Source: a virus
IMG/VR virus record: IMGVR_UViG_3300046499_000160
Coordinates: 1 to 29,562 of that record
DNA: 29,562 bases
Strand: one strand, 5' to 3'
Positions 9,559 through 19,098 of this stretch are shown here, one piece after another. The notes beneath the pieces were generated by a model that was not told the origin of the DNA, searched no databases, and was given only the letters and a program-made list of their open reading frames with translations. Position 1 is the first letter of the stretch; the number at the start of each line of letters is the position of its first letter. The position numbers and the translations under genes are program-made.

Positions 9559-10893
9559 TTAGAAGACAGGCGCGACGAGACCCGTACCCGAGATAACCGA
9601 AATCGACTTGGGGTACCGGGCAGGCTGGAAAGACATGTAGTTGTACAGGCGCACGAACACGGAAAGCTGGTTCGCGTACGTCTGCGGGAAGGCTTCGGCC
9701 TTGACGTTGCCCTCCCACGCCATCAGGTCCGACATGCGAGCCACGATGATCTGATCCTGAGTGCCACCCACCGTGGTCGGAATCAGCGAGTCAACGTAGA
9801 CCGGCAGGCCCTGAATGGTGCCAACGTAACCCTGAGACGCGACCTCACCCTGATTGCCAACGGCGTTCATCGGGGAGTTCGCCGACGGAGTCACCAGCGG
9901 ACGGCCCGTGGTGTCCGATGCGGCCAGCAGGTACGCCCACCGGCGAGGGTGCATGATGATCGTGTCCGGAGGCAGGAACCGGTTAGTGTGAACGGTCTGA
10001 ATCGCGTTGGCAATCTGCGAGTACAGGAGCGCGACGGTCGGCGAAGCCTGCGTGTACGTGATCGCGTTCGTGCCCGACAGGGTCAGCATGCCAGTGGGGT
10101 TACCGCCGGTGCCGGAGCCAGACAGAATCAGCGTGTTGTACTGCTGGGCATAGGCGCCAGCCAGGTCCGACAGGATGACGTCGTCAACGTTCAGGGGCGA
10201 CTGCTCGATGAGCTGGAGCGAAACGGTCTGGCCACCCGCAATGGTCGTCACGGTGGACGAAATCGACGTGGTAGTCAGGTCAGTGTTCTGGACACCAGTG
10301 TTCTGCGTCGCCTGCACCGCAACGGCCGTACCGGTCGAAACCTTCGGGACGTTAATCGAGTCGGTACCCGCCGGAAGCGCACTGGTCGGAACCAGGTTCG
10401 CGGTAATGCGGCCCGGACGTGCGAGGCGCACGAACTCCCGCTCAAGCCACAGCGGAGGAACGAACTCACCACCGGCGCCGTTGACCGTGGTCAGTGCACG
10501 CTGCTCGGCCGCGCGACCCCGGTTGTTGCGGACCAGACGATCCATCGCGGCAGTGTCGCCGTTCTGGCGCGAATTCCACATGTCGCGGAAGTATGAGTTA
10601 CCGCCGAGACCAGAGCGGTAGATCTCCGGCTCCGACTGGACACCATCGCCAGCCTTCGGCGCGTAACGCTTTTCGATTTCCTTCGCCGCCTCATCGGCGC
10701 GGACCTGCGCGTCAAGCTCGGCAATACGCTCATCGAGCGCGCGAATCTCAGTCTCGCCAGCATCGAAGGCCGCACGCTGCTCGTCGGTCATACCGCTGTC
10801 GGCGCCGCGAGCCTCACCAAGAATGCCGTCCAGCTTGGTGCGCTCAGCAGAACGCTTGGCAACGAGATCAGCAATAAGGGAACGCTTGTCCAT
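9559..10893 (-). CDS. Major capsid protein, HK97 fold
   Basis: 444 aa. Residues 1-75 are a charged coiled coil (EIRALDERIAELDAQVRADE), the scaffolding delta domain found in HK97-type capsid precursors. The mature shell domain follows from about residue 110, with GGEFVPPLWLEREFVRLARPG, then RFLPPDTIIMHPRRWAYLL, and a C-terminal LSVFVRLYNYMSFQPARYPKS, all typical of the HK97 family. A prohead protease lies just upstream, consistent with delta-domain removal. The start ATG at 10893 has AAAGG seven to eight bases upstream. A 150-bp leader separates it from the protease gene. Confidence 0.95.
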   Translation of the reverse strand: MDKRSLIADLVAKRSAERTKLDGILGEARGADSGMTDEQRAAFDAGETEIRALDERIAELDAQVRADEAAKEIEKRYAPKAGDGVQSEPEIYRSGLGGNSYFRDMWNSRQNGDTAAMDRLVRNNRGRAAEQRALTTVNGAGGEFVPPLWLEREFVRLARPGRITANLVPTSALPAGTDSINVPKVSTGTAVAVQATQNTGVQNTDLTTTSISSTVTTIAGGQTVSLQLIEQSPLNVDDVILSDLAGAYAQQYNTLILSGSGTGGNPTGMLTLSGTNAITYTQASPTVALLYSQIANAIQTVHTNRFLPPDTIIMHPRRWAYLLAASDTTGRPLVTPSANSPMNAVGNQGEVASQGYVGTIQGLPVYVDSLIPTTVGGTQDQIIVARMSDLMAWEGNVKAEAFPQTYANQLSVFVRLYNYMSFQPARYPKSISVISGTGLVAPVF

Positions 10894-14903: not shown

Positions 14904-15371
14904 CTACACCCCAGCCTTTTTGGCTAGGAAATCCTCGAATGCGTTTCGCGCCTTAACCTCCGCCAACCCCATACGGGTGCGGTCAGTCGGCGTGAGACCC
15001 AGCGCGCTGAATAGCTTGGCAATTTCCGTTTCGATCGTGGAAAGCATGCCGACCAGCGGATTGGGGTACGCGTACATTTTGTCCGTGAAGAGGACTAGCT
15101 CGCTTCGCGACAGCTGAGCTTTCATCGCCTCGCGCCGGTCGACCTTTTCGCATAGCAATTCGAGCGTTGGCTTATCGGTCTCGGCCAGCCAGGCAGCGCC
15201 GTCGACGATCCGGCGGAACATCTCAGCGCCAGCGGAACCGAGCTGCGCGGGCGCACTCTGCGTAACGGGCTGCACGGCGTGAACCGAGCCAGCATCGGGC
15301 AGAGGGCGCGCGCCAGGGTTGCCGAGTTTGCGCTTACGCTCCGCAGGCACCGGCGGACGACCAGCAGGCAT
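14904..15371 (-). CDS. Terminase small subunit, P27-like
   Basis: 155 aa. DNA-recognition subunit of the packaging complex. The start MPAGRPPVPAERKRKLGNPGARPLP is the classic opening of P27-family small terminases, so I chose the ATG at 15371 (GGGGGTGG four bases upstream) and not the farther in-frame start at 15491. The rest is helical, with LFSALGLTPTDRTRMGLAEV, also typical of the family, near the end. It lies downstream of an HNH gene across a 225-bp gap that may contain the packaging site. Confidence 0.92.
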   Translation of the reverse strand: MPAGRPPVPAERKRKLGNPGARPLPDAGSVHAVQPVTQSAPAQLGSAGAEMFRRIVDGAAWLAETDKPTLELLCEKVDRREAMKAQLSRSELVLFTDKMYAYPNPLVGMLSTIETEIAKLFSALGLTPTDRTRMGLAEVKARNAFEDFLAKKAGV

Positions 15372-15596
15372 GCGGCCACCCCCGATTTCTGCGTATTCAT
15401 GCGCTTCCGGCGCGTAAAAGGACCAGACCCCGGGGGTCAGAATTTCGCAGCGATGCGCGGAGCCATGGGGGCCGGGTCCGGGAAGGATCATGCTCTGGAG
15501 ATTTACCCCGCCCCCCTATGCATACATATGCAAGGCAGGTCGAGCGAGGATGCATGTCCATGCAGTCACAGCGAGGCAGGCCAGCAGCGCTAACGC
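15372..15596. other. Non-coding gap between HNH and small terminase; candidate cos region
   Basis: Contains a 13-base palindrome GACCCCGGGGGTC (15426-15438), a 14-base inverted repeat TGCATACATATGCA (15519-15532) with extra TGCAT copies at about 15551 and 15562, and a run of C residues. HK97-type phages have the order HNH, cos, small terminase when circular, which makes this the best place for the cohesive end. No cut site can be assigned by eye. Confidence 0.4.
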
Positions 15597-15944
15597 TTAC
15601 GCCCTGTCACGCTTCCGCGAATTGCAGCCGCGACACAGCACGGTGAGGTTGGCACGGTCGTGAGTGCCACCCTTGGCCAGCGGCACGACGTGATCCACAG
15701 TGAGATCCCTACTCGCGTGCGCCGGGACCCCGTGCCCCGGACACCAGTCACCATGCCTGCCTCGATGCTCTGCTACCACACTGCCTGCTACTGCTCTGTA
15801 CCTACTGGTGTAGCCACGCTGGTGAGCACTGCCACGTACCGCATTGCGCTGGGCCATGTACTCAGCCTGATGTACATCACAGCGTGATGCGTTAGCAGTC
15901 AGCCGCCCACACTTAAGGCACGGTCGCCTAGCCACCCCTACCAC
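15597..15944 (-). CDS. HNH endonuclease of the packaging module
   Basis: 115 aa. The HNH core is LTVDHVVPLAKGGTHDRAN followed by LTVLCRGCNSRKRDR: His of DHVV, the Asn, and the Cys pair with CRGC. An additional zinc site is suggested by CLKCG and CDVH at the N-terminus. HNH proteins beside terminase stimulate cos cleavage in HK97-like phages. The GTG at 15944 overlaps the end of the preceding gene; a second GTG at 15935 is equally possible because neither has a clear ribosome site. Confidence 0.88.
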   Translation of the reverse strand: MVGVARRPCLKCGRLTANASRCDVHQAEYMAQRNAVRGSAHQRGYTSRYRAVAGSVVAEHRGRHGDWCPGHGVPAHASRDLTVDHVVPLAKGGTHDRANLTVLCRGCNSRKRDRA

Positions 15945-16254: not shown

Positions 16255-16259
16255 GCTTG

Positions 16260-16332
16260 CTGGCACGGCTGGATTCGAACCAGCAACACCCGGATTAACA
16301 ATCCGGCGCTCTACCGATTGAGCTACATGCCA
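16260..16332 (-). tRNA. tRNA-Asn (GTT)
   Basis: A complete cloverleaf: acceptor TGGCATG/CGTGCCA with one G-T pair, D-stem AGCTC/GAGC, anticodon stem CCGGA/TCCGG with loop TTGTTAA (anticodon GTT), and T-arm GCTGG-TTCGAAT-CCAGC. No encoded CCA; the bases after the discriminator are CAAG-like. Confidence 0.93.
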
Positions 16333-16338
16333 TGGCGA

Positions 16339-16397
16339 CCCGCCCGGATTGCGTGCCGGACTTCCCCTTGACGGGGTGTGCTGCTTACACCAGCGGG
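16339..16397 (-). ncRNA. tRNA-like element (Asp-like, degenerate)
   Basis: 59 bases closed by CCCGC/GCGGG. It has a D-like arm (GTG-TAAGCAG-CAC), an anticodon-like arm of four pairs with a 5-base loop (CCCC-GTCAA-GGGG, including GTC for Asp) and a T-like arm CCGG-CACGCAAT-CCGG that lacks TTC. It starts six bases from tRNA-Asn. Either a decayed tRNA or an unusual one. Confidence 0.45.
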
Positions 16398-16404
16398 AAG
16401 ATTC

Positions 16405-16468
16405 TGCTTCGCACGCCCGGCATCGAACCGGAGCCATGACCTGAGTCCACCAACTCACGCGCGAAGCA
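16405..16468 (-). ncRNA. tRNA-like element lacking an anticodon arm
   Basis: 64 bases with an 11-pair closing stem (TGCTTCGCGCG against CGTGCGAAGCA, one G-T), a D-like arm (TGAGT-TGGTGG-ACTCA) and a good T-arm (TCCGG-TTCGATG-CCGGG). Only about nine bases lie between the D and T arms, so the anticodon arm is missing. Confidence 0.55.
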
Positions 16469-16535
16469 AGATTTAGGGTTACTCGCCGCCCGCTCCGCTG
16501 GTGACTAGCCAGGGAGGTAGGGCCGGTTTCACCCA

Positions 16536-16584
16536 AGGTGCGCGGAGACTGAGGAGCCCCGGTCAAGGGGTCGTCTTTGCACCT
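16536..16584 (-). ncRNA. Hairpin element in the tRNA array
   Basis: Closed by AGGTGC/GCACCT with an inner AGAC/GTCT step and an apical CCCC-loop-GGGG stem whose loop contains TTGACC on the minus strand. It ends four bases from tRNA-Cys. It may be a spacer hairpin that guides processing. Confidence 0.35.
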
Positions 16585-16587
16585 ACG

Positions 16588-16656
16588 CTGCCAACGCGGG
16601 TCTTGAACCCGACCACTCCAGTTTGCAGCCGGAGTGCGCTCCATACGCTGAGGGCA
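16588..16656 (-). tRNA. tRNA-Cys (GCA), imperfect acceptor
   Basis: The anticodon arm is strong: ACTCCGG-CTGCAAA-CTGGAGT, with the canonical Cys loop and anticodon GCA. The T-loop TTCAAGA has a CGGG/CCCG stem. The acceptor TGCCCTC/GTTGGCA has two mismatches and the D-stem is only three pairs, so function is likely but not certain. Confidence 0.7.
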
Positions 16657-16731
16657 TTATCGCGGGAGTCGCCTACTACGACCATGGCCTGCGCCACCCG
16701 AGCGGAGTAAGGGTTTCCGCAGGATCCGCCG

Positions 16732-16802
16732 TCGACGGCGCCGGAATCGAACCAGCAGTCTTCCGGCCCTTGCCGGACGCTCTACCCTTGAGCTATTCGC
16801 CG
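16732..16802 (-). tRNA. tRNA-like gene with a 6-base anticodon loop
   Basis: D-arm AGCTCAAGGGTAGAGC and T-arm GCTGG-TTCGATT-CCGGC are canonical. The anticodon arm is TCCGG-CAAGGG-CCGGA, a 6-base loop without U33, so no anticodon can be assigned safely (AAG or AGG by position). The acceptor has five pairs at most, though ACGGCG/CGCCGT pairs perfectly if shifted. Confidence 0.5.
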
Positions 16803-16804
16803 TT

Positions 16805-16863
16805 GCGTAAGAGCCACTGTCTTCCAGTGCCCGGGGAGTGCATGCCCCGCATATGTCTCACGC
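16805..16863 (-). ncRNA. tRNA-like element
   Basis: 59 bases closed by seven pairs (GCGTGAG/CTTACGC, one G-T). Inside are GGGG-CATGCACT-CCCC and CACTG-GAAGA-CAGTG hairpins, the second with a 5-base loop. There is no TTC T-loop. It is packed three bases from its right neighbour's 3' end and two from its left neighbour's 5' end. Confidence 0.4.
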
Positions 16864-16866
16864 TCC

Positions 16867-16953
16867 GTGCCGCATCCAGGAATTGAACCAAGGACTTCCC
16901 CACACCCATGGGCCCATGGCGGGGGCGCTCTACCAGACTGAGCTAATGCGGCA
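16867..16953 (-). tRNA. tRNA-like gene (Pro-like) with an insert in the anticodon loop
   Basis: Acceptor TGCCGCA/TGCGGCA is perfect, the D-arm GCTC...GAGC is canonical and the T-loop TTCAATT is normal. Between CCCC and GGGG of the anticodon stem lie about 18 bases that contain the 14-base palindrome CCATGGGCCCATGG. Removing one of the two near-identical 8-base units (GCCATGGG, CCCATGGG) restores a 7-base loop with TGG, suggesting a tRNA-Pro ancestor. Confidence 0.55.
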
Positions 16954-17333: not shown

Positions 17334-17334
17334 A

Positions 17335-17360
17335 GTTATCCACAGGCGCCTGTGGATAAC
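17335..17360. promoter_or_regulatory. Perfect 26-bp palindrome with two convergent DnaA boxes
   Basis: Each 13-bp arm contains TTATCCACA, which equals the E. coli consensus DnaA box and differs by one base from the usual Streptomyces box TTGTCCACA. The boxes at 17336-17344 and 17351-17359 face each other across GGCGCC. It could be a replication element or a site for host DnaA control. It would also form a 13-pair RNA hairpin. Confidence 0.7.
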
Positions 17361-17379
17361 TTTGTGGGCGCATGAGAAA

Positions 17380-17437: not shown

Positions 17438-18838
17438 TCACATGTCCTCAAGGTATTCAGTCAGCGCGTAGTCCTCCCCGCCGCTGGCCCAACTGATCTC
17501 CAGCCGCTCCGCGTGCGCCTTGGTCGACACCACGACTGTCAGGCCTAGGTCCCCCAGTAGGCCCGTACGTACCCCCGGGTCGCTGTCCCACGCCTCCCCC
17601 AGCGTCCTGCCGGTCGGCTCCAGCACTTCCCGTACGTCAGGGTCATGCGCGGCCTTTAGAGCGGCGTACGCGGCCTCCAGCTCGGCCGCTTTCTCGTTGA
17701 GCGTGGCCAGCATGAGCGGACCGGCCGAAGCCATCTGTGTCGCGATGCGGTCCGCTTTCTCCTGTGCTTCCGCCATTGCCTCGCTCATGTCGTTGCCACC
17801 CTCCAGCCGCACGACGTATTCATCGACCAACCCGAAACGCTTCCTGAATTCAGCCTCGACCGCGCGGTCTACGTGCTCGGCAGTGATGGATACGTGGCCG
17901 GTCTTGCACCGGTAGCGGGCTACGCCATTGCGGAGCTTTCCGCCGTTCACTCGCCCGTCACAGACGGCGCAGAAAGCCAGGCCAGCGCACAGAGGGGCAG
18001 CCTTGCGCGGCGCACGGTCCTTGCCGGTCGCCAGCGCGTTCAGCCGCTCGCGTACGGCCTTGGCTTCCGCCGCTGTGATGATGGGCTCCGCGAAATGGAC
18101 CGGCGTAATCCCGTCCTCCGCCACGATCAATTGGCCTTTGTGCTCGCGCTGTCCCCGGAGATTGGGGGACTTGAGCATGCGTCGCCACTGTCGCTCACCA
18201 ATTCCGAGCATGCGCGATGTGCTGGCTACCGTGCCGTCGTCATCGTTGATGAGTGAGCGTACGGCGGCGCGAACTTGCTCTGCCTGCTCCTCATCAATGG
18301 CGAGATACGCCGCTCCGTCTCGCCGCTCAATTCGGTATCCGAATGGAGCATTGCCGGATATCCAGCGTCCTTGTGTGCGTCGGGTGGCGTGACCGTCGAG
18401 AATTCGGCCTTTAATCATTTCGCGTTCCCATTCGGCCAGTGCGGCGAGAACAACCGCGACCATGCGCCCGGTGGGAGTCGTCGTGTTCACGACATTGTCT
18501 GTGGTGGCCAAGCGCACATTGTGAGCCTCGCCCCACCCGACCAGCCGGAGGAATTCGCTCACGCTGCGGGCGTACCGGTCGAGTTTCCACGCAATGATCA
18601 CGTTGGGCCGGTCGCGCATTAGCTGACGCATCCGCTGTCGGTCCTCCAGCGCCTTAGCGCCGGATACTCCGGAATCGACGTACTCTGTTATGTCGGCGTC
18701 GGCAAAACCGTTGGCCTTGAGCCAGGTAAGCGCTGCGGCGCGCTGGGTGTCGACGGAGGCCGATTCGGCGGTCTCGCGGCTGAGTCGGATGTAGATCGCT
18801 ACTTGGGTGCGTCCGGTGGTGCCGGTGGAGGTTCTCAT
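17438..18838 (-). CDS. int: Large serine integrase
   Basis: 466 aa from the ATG at 18838. Site-specific recombinase joining attP to a host attB. The resolvase domain has the nucleophile Ser20 in AIYIRLSRE, followed by DSGVSGAK, WKLDRYARSV and AALAEWEREMIKGR. Then come the recombinase domain (APFGYRIERRDG), a zinc ribbon (CAVCDGRVNGG ... YRCKTG) and a coiled-coil insert (LNEKAAELEAAYAALKAAH), the order seen in phiC31/Bxb1-type integrases. The chosen ATG lies inside the attP arm and has GAGGA only one or two bases away, so initiation is uncertain; a GTG at 18910 in the same frame reads through attP and would add 24 residues. The product ends in LEDM, and the same codons occur at the start (SLEDM). 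Confidence 0.93.
   Translation of the reverse strand: MRTSTGTTGRTQVAIYIRLSRETAESASVDTQRAAALTWLKANGFADADITEYVDSGVSGAKALEDRQRMRQLMRDRPNVIIAWKLDRYARSVSEFLRLVGWGEAHNVRLATTDNVVNTTTPTGRMVAVVLAALAEWEREMIKGRILDGHATRRTQGRWISGNAPFGYRIERRDGAAYLAIDEEQAEQVRAAVRSLINDDDGTVASTSRMLGIGERQWRRMLKSPNLRGQREHKGQLIVAEDGITPVHFAEPIITAAEAKAVRERLNALATGKDRAPRKAAPLCAGLAFCAVCDGRVNGGKLRNGVARYRCKTGHVSITAEHVDRAVEAEFRKRFGLVDEYVVRLEGGNDMSEAMAEAQEKADRIATQMASAGPLMLATLNEKAAELEAAYAALKAAHDPDVREVLEPTGRTLGEAWDSDPGVRTGLLGDLGLTVVVSTKAHAERLEISWASGGEDYALTEYLEDM
17441..17453. repeat. Copy of the attP arm at the integrase 3' end
   Basis: CATGTCCTCAAGG is identical to 18836-18848, the left arm of attP, in the same orientation. It encodes the last residues of integrase, so the gene is bracketed by a 13-bp direct repeat. 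Confidence 0.8.
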
Positions 18839-18889
18839 GTCCTCAAGGCTAGCCGCGTTCCCAGGAACGTGTCCACTCTTGAGGACATG
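18836..18889. other. attP: attP site
   Basis: Outer arms CATGTCCTCAAG (18836-18847) and CTTGAGGACATG (18878-18889) are perfect inverted repeats. An inner repeat CGTTCC (18856-18861) and GGAACG (18864-18869) shares the same centre at 18862.5, leaving the non-palindromic dinucleotide CA at 18862-18863 as the predicted crossover. Size (about 54 bp), symmetry and position match serine integrase attP sites. It includes the integrase ATG at 18836-18838. Confidence 0.85.
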
Positions 18890-18894
18890 CACCC

Positions 18895-19098
18895 CTAGCG
18901 GCCGTTCCACCCGTCCGGCGCCGGTACGAACTCACTGCGCCATGCGACGCGGCACCGGTACATCCATGACTCCGCGCCCGCTTGCGCTGTCCACTCCAGC
19001 GCCTCGCCTGCCAGCGTGCAGAACGCTCGCATGTGTCGGTCGAGGATGCCCCAACTACCCGTGCTCGGGACCCTGGTTACTGCGTATCTAGTGATCAT
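18895..19098 (-). CDS. 67-aa protein upstream of attP, unknown
   Basis: Starts at the ATG at 19098 and stops six bases before attP. It has four aromatic Trp residues, two Cys and a basic N-terminus (MITRYAVTRVPSTGSWG). No family recognised. By position it could be a recombination directionality factor or integrase regulator, because such factors are diverse small proteins, but nothing in the sequence proves this. A possible -10 TATGCT (19105-19110) with TTGGCC 15 bases upstream would start RNA at or near the ATG, so the message may be leaderless; a GAGGGAG 13 bases upstream is an alternative ribosome site. Confidence 0.65.
   Translation of the reverse strand: MITRYAVTRVPSTGSWGILDRHMRAFCTLAGEALEWTAQAGAESWMYRCRVAWRSEFVPAPDGWNGR

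Follow-up and report, generated by a model that had tools for sequence, protein, structure and literature searches.

Serine integrases such as that of Bxb1 are major genome-engineering tools. The regulation of their own genes is little described in the literature searched, and some of the closest described arrangements belong to other kinds of element. According to the KplE1 study, the promoter of the integrase gene intS overlaps the att site and the integrase represses its own gene (PMC2951348); as described there, and unlike the locus analyzed here, KplE1 has a tyrosine integrase, and the promoter lies in attL, is active in the prophage and is not cut by the crossover. ICEKp1 and ICEclc express int from one promoter in the circular state and from a promoter of the host in the integrated state (PMC13023037), but these are integrative conjugative elements at tRNA genes in which entire promoters are swapped from the far end and none is split in its spacer. 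Among phages, the attP of Streptomyces phage phiJoe lies 18 bp upstream of int (PMC5311408), while that of SV1 lies downstream of int (PMC4068962). Self-repressed promoters that overlap an att site, and a change of promoter between the circular and integrated states, are already known. The literature on integrase promoters and att sites, covered mostly outside subscription journals and on one topic through the best 10 of 155 papers, did not describe any serine-integrase promoter that is split by crossover at its own attP.

The window analyzed here is a virus contig of 29,562 nt (IMG/VR record IMGVR_UViG_3300046499_000160). It belongs to a soil actinobacteriophage with a serine integrase and a phiC31-like backbone, matching phiC31 in its primase, polymerase, terminase, portal and sigma factor, but its integrase differs from that of phiC31. 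At 14904-15944 an HNH gene resembling phiC31 gp30 leads without a break into a small terminase-like gene, at the place corresponding to the ends of phiC31's linear record, and the contig may therefore derive from DNA that was circular or joined. Downstream of int, at 16259-16952, is a cluster of four predicted tRNA genes, of which one has an unusual anticodon of two bases; phiC31 likewise carries a tRNA gene at this place. Closer to int on its downstream side, two inverted, DnaA-box-like TTATCCACA motifs make up a palindrome (17334-17361). The sequence GGTAAATTTACC or a one-mismatch version of it occurs nine times across the genome (at 2169, 5599, 11022, 14890, 16242, 21012, 21693, 23002 and 25027), with none expected by chance, and together these copies resemble a set of operators or stoperators bound by a phage repressor.

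The features of the int region are the following.

17438 to 18838, minus strand: serine integrase gene (int), 466 aa
18836 to 18889, minus strand: putative attP, a 54-bp imperfect inverted repeat
18846 to 18851, minus strand: predicted -10 box TAGCCT, 7 nt before the int ATG
18862 to 18863, minus strand: predicted crossover dinucleotide, CA on the plus strand and TG on the minus strand
18870 to 18875, minus strand: predicted -35 hexamer TGGACA, at an 18-nt spacer
18895 to 19098, minus strand: 67-aa gene resembling phiC31 gp27, ending just upstream of attP

The int product has the architecture of a large serine integrase, a resolvase catalytic domain (PF00239, residues 13-159 of 466, E 7.5e-28) followed by a long C-terminal region, and it matches the PHROG 95 integrase over residues 6-453 (E 4.7e-71). 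We class it on these grounds as a large serine integrase, with predicted recombinase activity on attP and attB. Cultured relatives of the integrase were sought at an identity of at least 60%, and none was found.

The initial annotation had placed attP over the integrase start, with two pairs of arms sharing one center, and the geometry that it gave was borne out. The outer arms, CATGTCCTCAAG (18836-18847) and CTTGAGGACATG (18878-18889), are 12 bp long and exact reverse complements, and the 6-bp inner arms, CGTTCC (18856-18861) and GGAACG (18864-18869), flank the CA at 18862-18863; both pairs are centered on 18862.5. With 21 of 27 pairs matched, 18836-18889 has the highest dyad score of all 54-bp stretches in the window (the next reach 20 and 19), and the score around the int start exceeded those of all 300 shuffles. 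An inverted repeat of about 50 bp adjoining int and a non-palindromic central dinucleotide, features of a serine-integrase attP, are both present. As also claimed, the int ATG (18838-18836, minus strand) forms the final three bases of a dyad arm, and the sole candidate Shine-Dalgarno-like bases, GAGG, lie in the same arm, very close to the ATG at 2 nt; they are not conserved in relatives.

Besides copies of the window's own integrase, two scans of viral contigs yielded about 20 loci whose integrases share 60-70% identity with it. In 16 of 16 distinct sites, the window included, the center of the best dyad around the int start falls 24-25 bp from the ATG; these sites come from related phages and are not mutually independent, so that this and the other counts among them do not represent separate events. 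All attP-bearing relatives retain the int ATG, and the end of the 67-aa gene adjoins attP in relatives too. The central dinucleotide varies (GG, TG, AG, CT or CC), and the window's TG recurs in four other relatives (L043, L046, L052 and L056). In the two genomes of L004 and L005 (region upstream of int, at 9998), int is on the other side of the attachment site with its ATG outside, so the layout of int and attP has been remade on at least one occasion.

Integrases 59-65% identical to the window's are carried by six Streptomyces genomes. The DNA adjoining int is part of one host gene, for a thiamine-binding protein (PF01910), in all six; the gene is interrupted in each of them and intact in eight of nine other Streptomyces genomes tested. 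Both host-gene halves lie beside the element in G114, G063, G001 and G612, only the 3' part was found in G002, and G282 is decayed. Joining the halves of G114 and G063 restores FTS(I/V)EGEWDEVMD, the uninterrupted sequence of other strains. The exchange point in G114 falls within four shared bases, GGGC, at the dyad center; the shared stretch at the G063 junction is longer. Crossover at the central dinucleotide and replacement of all DNA upstream, two further elements of the initial annotation, are thus directly visible in these GG-centered relatives. Since the dyad keeps a conserved position near the int ATG and relatives' junctions fall at its center, we take the 54-bp dyad to be the attP of a serine-integrase actinophage. 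Crossover of the window phage at 18862-18863 is predicted from the GG-type relatives, and from them we likewise infer replacement of its upstream DNA upon integration, which would leave the 67-aa gene at the far side of the element. Genome searches for an integrated copy of the window phage or of a TG-type relative, which would supply an attB for the window's site, found none.

In G114, G063 and G612 the interrupted host gene is co-directional with int and reads into it. The truncated host frame there ends at TAG or TGA in the P' arm, immediately ahead of the int ATG, so that coupled translation would be possible. G001 and G002 are arranged differently, with int on the opposite side of the site and its ATG outside it. 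In Streptomyces, the related integrases are carried by small elements of about 2.2-6.9 kb rather than by full prophages (L013/L030-L032 in G114, L014/L033-L035 in G063, L019-L021 in G001 and L066 in G612); these may be satellites, minimal mobile elements or prophage remnants.

TANNNT is used by the promoters of Streptomyces coelicolor, and leaderless mRNAs arise from 21% of its primary start sites (PMC4895711). A leaderless actinobacterial promoter is expected to carry TANNNT 6-8 nt ahead of the start codon, and int has such a box. Among the related sites, TANNNT ends 7-8 nt before the int ATG, in the P' arm, in 16 of 16, compared with 2 of 16 at the mirror-image position of the opposite arm, and it occurs at the same spacing before only 6 of 795 ATGs generally in the window. 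At the 18-nt spacer, the match to the -35 hexamer TTGACA is 5/6 in the window, 4-5/6 in the other TG-type relatives and 3/6 in the rest. The crossover dinucleotide lies within the spacer between the predicted -10 and -35. The attL of integrated copies retains the -10 and has host sequence at the -35 place, where the hexamer matches at one of six positions in G114, G063 and G612 and at three of six in the decayed G282. A scan for E. coli-type promoters found nothing; that scan demands a hexamer nearer TATAAT than TANNNT is.

Our main reading, to which we give a probability of roughly 0.7, is that the same 54 bp serve both as attP and as the promoter and start of int, and that crossover would split this promoter and hand int over to host transcription. 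In the circular phage the promoter would be whole, with the -10 and the ATG in the P' half and the -35-like hexamer in the other half. The -10 is only 7 nt from the ATG, so the int mRNA is expected to be leaderless. Integrase bound at attP should cover the promoter and should therefore repress its own gene, a step that rests on the overlap of the predicted sites. After crossover, the -10 and ATG would stay with int, and the -35 and everything upstream would give way to host DNA. Where the new upstream DNA is the 5' part of the thiamine-binding protein gene running into int, as in G114, G063 and G612, int would depend on a weakened core promoter and host read-through. We infer promoter activity, the leaderless transcript, repression by Int and the change of expression on integration from the placing of these sites. 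Counting against this reading are the weak -35 match (3/6) outside TG-type sites, the empty scan for E. coli-type promoters, the searches that found neither an attB nor a lysogen of the window phage, and the position of the int ATG outside the site in G001 and G002. In addition, Streptomyces promoters often lack a clear -35, and loss of the -35 may for that reason matter little.

The initial annotation had proposed a different consequence of integration, in which int is transcribed from the leaderless promoter of the 67-aa gene and falls silent in the lysogen once integration removes that promoter. The 67-aa gene does have a TANNNT of its own as claimed, with TATGCT placed 6 nt ahead of the ATG (19098), the gene lies directly upstream of int and is co-directional with it, and host DNA takes its place in integrated relatives. 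However, the int-adjacent -10 is conserved in every relative and remains with int after integration, and the host gene reads into int in the three co-directional genomes. We consequently reject the idea that int is controlled mainly by losing the promoter of the 67-aa gene and regard this account as quite unlikely; promoter hand-over appears to fit better than silencing. A function for the 67-aa protein as recombination directionality factor was also considered and rejected: the protein resembles phiC31 gp27, and a homologue of gp3, the known directionality factor of phiC31, exists in a larger relative, G006. This homologue (L026:10166-10885) is 41% identical to gp3, though the G006 integrase is of a different lineage.

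Another interpretation accepts the dyad as attP and treats TANNNT as simply part of the integrase binding site, with a longer mRNA that begins upstream serving for the translation of int and no promoter function for the arm. Integrase would bind the arms on either reading, and the start of the int transcript is itself predicted from sequence. Against this, the TANNNT is confined largely to one arm and stands at leaderless spacing, and the same -10 precedes int in unrelated actinophages whose dyad lies further off. We consider this reading unlikely. The initial annotation also noted a GTG at 18910 from which int might begin and read through attP, with integration altering the N-terminus. The codon is indeed in frame, and no stop interrupts the window's attP in that frame; its use as a start was rejected, since it is unconserved in relatives (in L009 and L041, for example, reading back from the ATG meets a stop before any start codon) and the ATG is the start common to all attP-bearing relatives. 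A start at this GTG is highly improbable.

The -10 before int extends beyond the close relatives of the window. TANNNT use was assessed more broadly in 24 actinophages from culture that have serine integrases, and in two phages of Firmicutes. TANNNT was found 6-8 nt before a start of int in 21 of the 24 actinophages and in neither Firmicutes phage, compared with 2.9 expected for all 26; in-frame alternative starts were allowed, which gives per-phage chance rates of up to 0.24, and the annotated start was the one used in 14 of the 21. The dyad center falls between the -10 and the -35 place in Bxb1 (25 bp from the start) and VResidence (29 bp), and is intermediate, at 33-35 bp, in R4, Asa16, Indigo and phiC31; several other dyads of cultured phages were not significant, which leaves the share of split promoters uncertain. 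phiJoe resembles the window in having a serine integrase and TAGGTT 7 nt before the ATG, but its dyad center is 43 bp from the ATG and the whole promoter would stay with int. We conclude that the window is a variant of a wider actinophage arrangement and of a known design. A close parallel is mycobacteriophage Bxb1, likewise a serine-integrase phage with a dyad center 25 bp from the int ATG, in which TACGGT lies 8 nt before the ATG and inside the attP arm. Crossover in Bxb1 would accordingly fall between the -10 and any -35, and Bxb1 appears to have the same split geometry as the window. Unlike in the window, the Bxb1 attP arm abuts the ATG without containing it, the target is unrelated and the integrase is only distantly related.

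We suggest tentatively, at somewhat less than even odds, that in a broad group of actinophages that includes Bxb1, attP may be a recombination-controlled promoter that is repressed by integrase and whose -35 is swapped by the crossover, with int output set by the circular or integrated state and by the host gene entered. If attP does act as the promoter of int, vectors built with attP also contain a promoter, and self-repression by the integrase is predicted. The switch from the circular to the integrated state would then rewire the expression of int.
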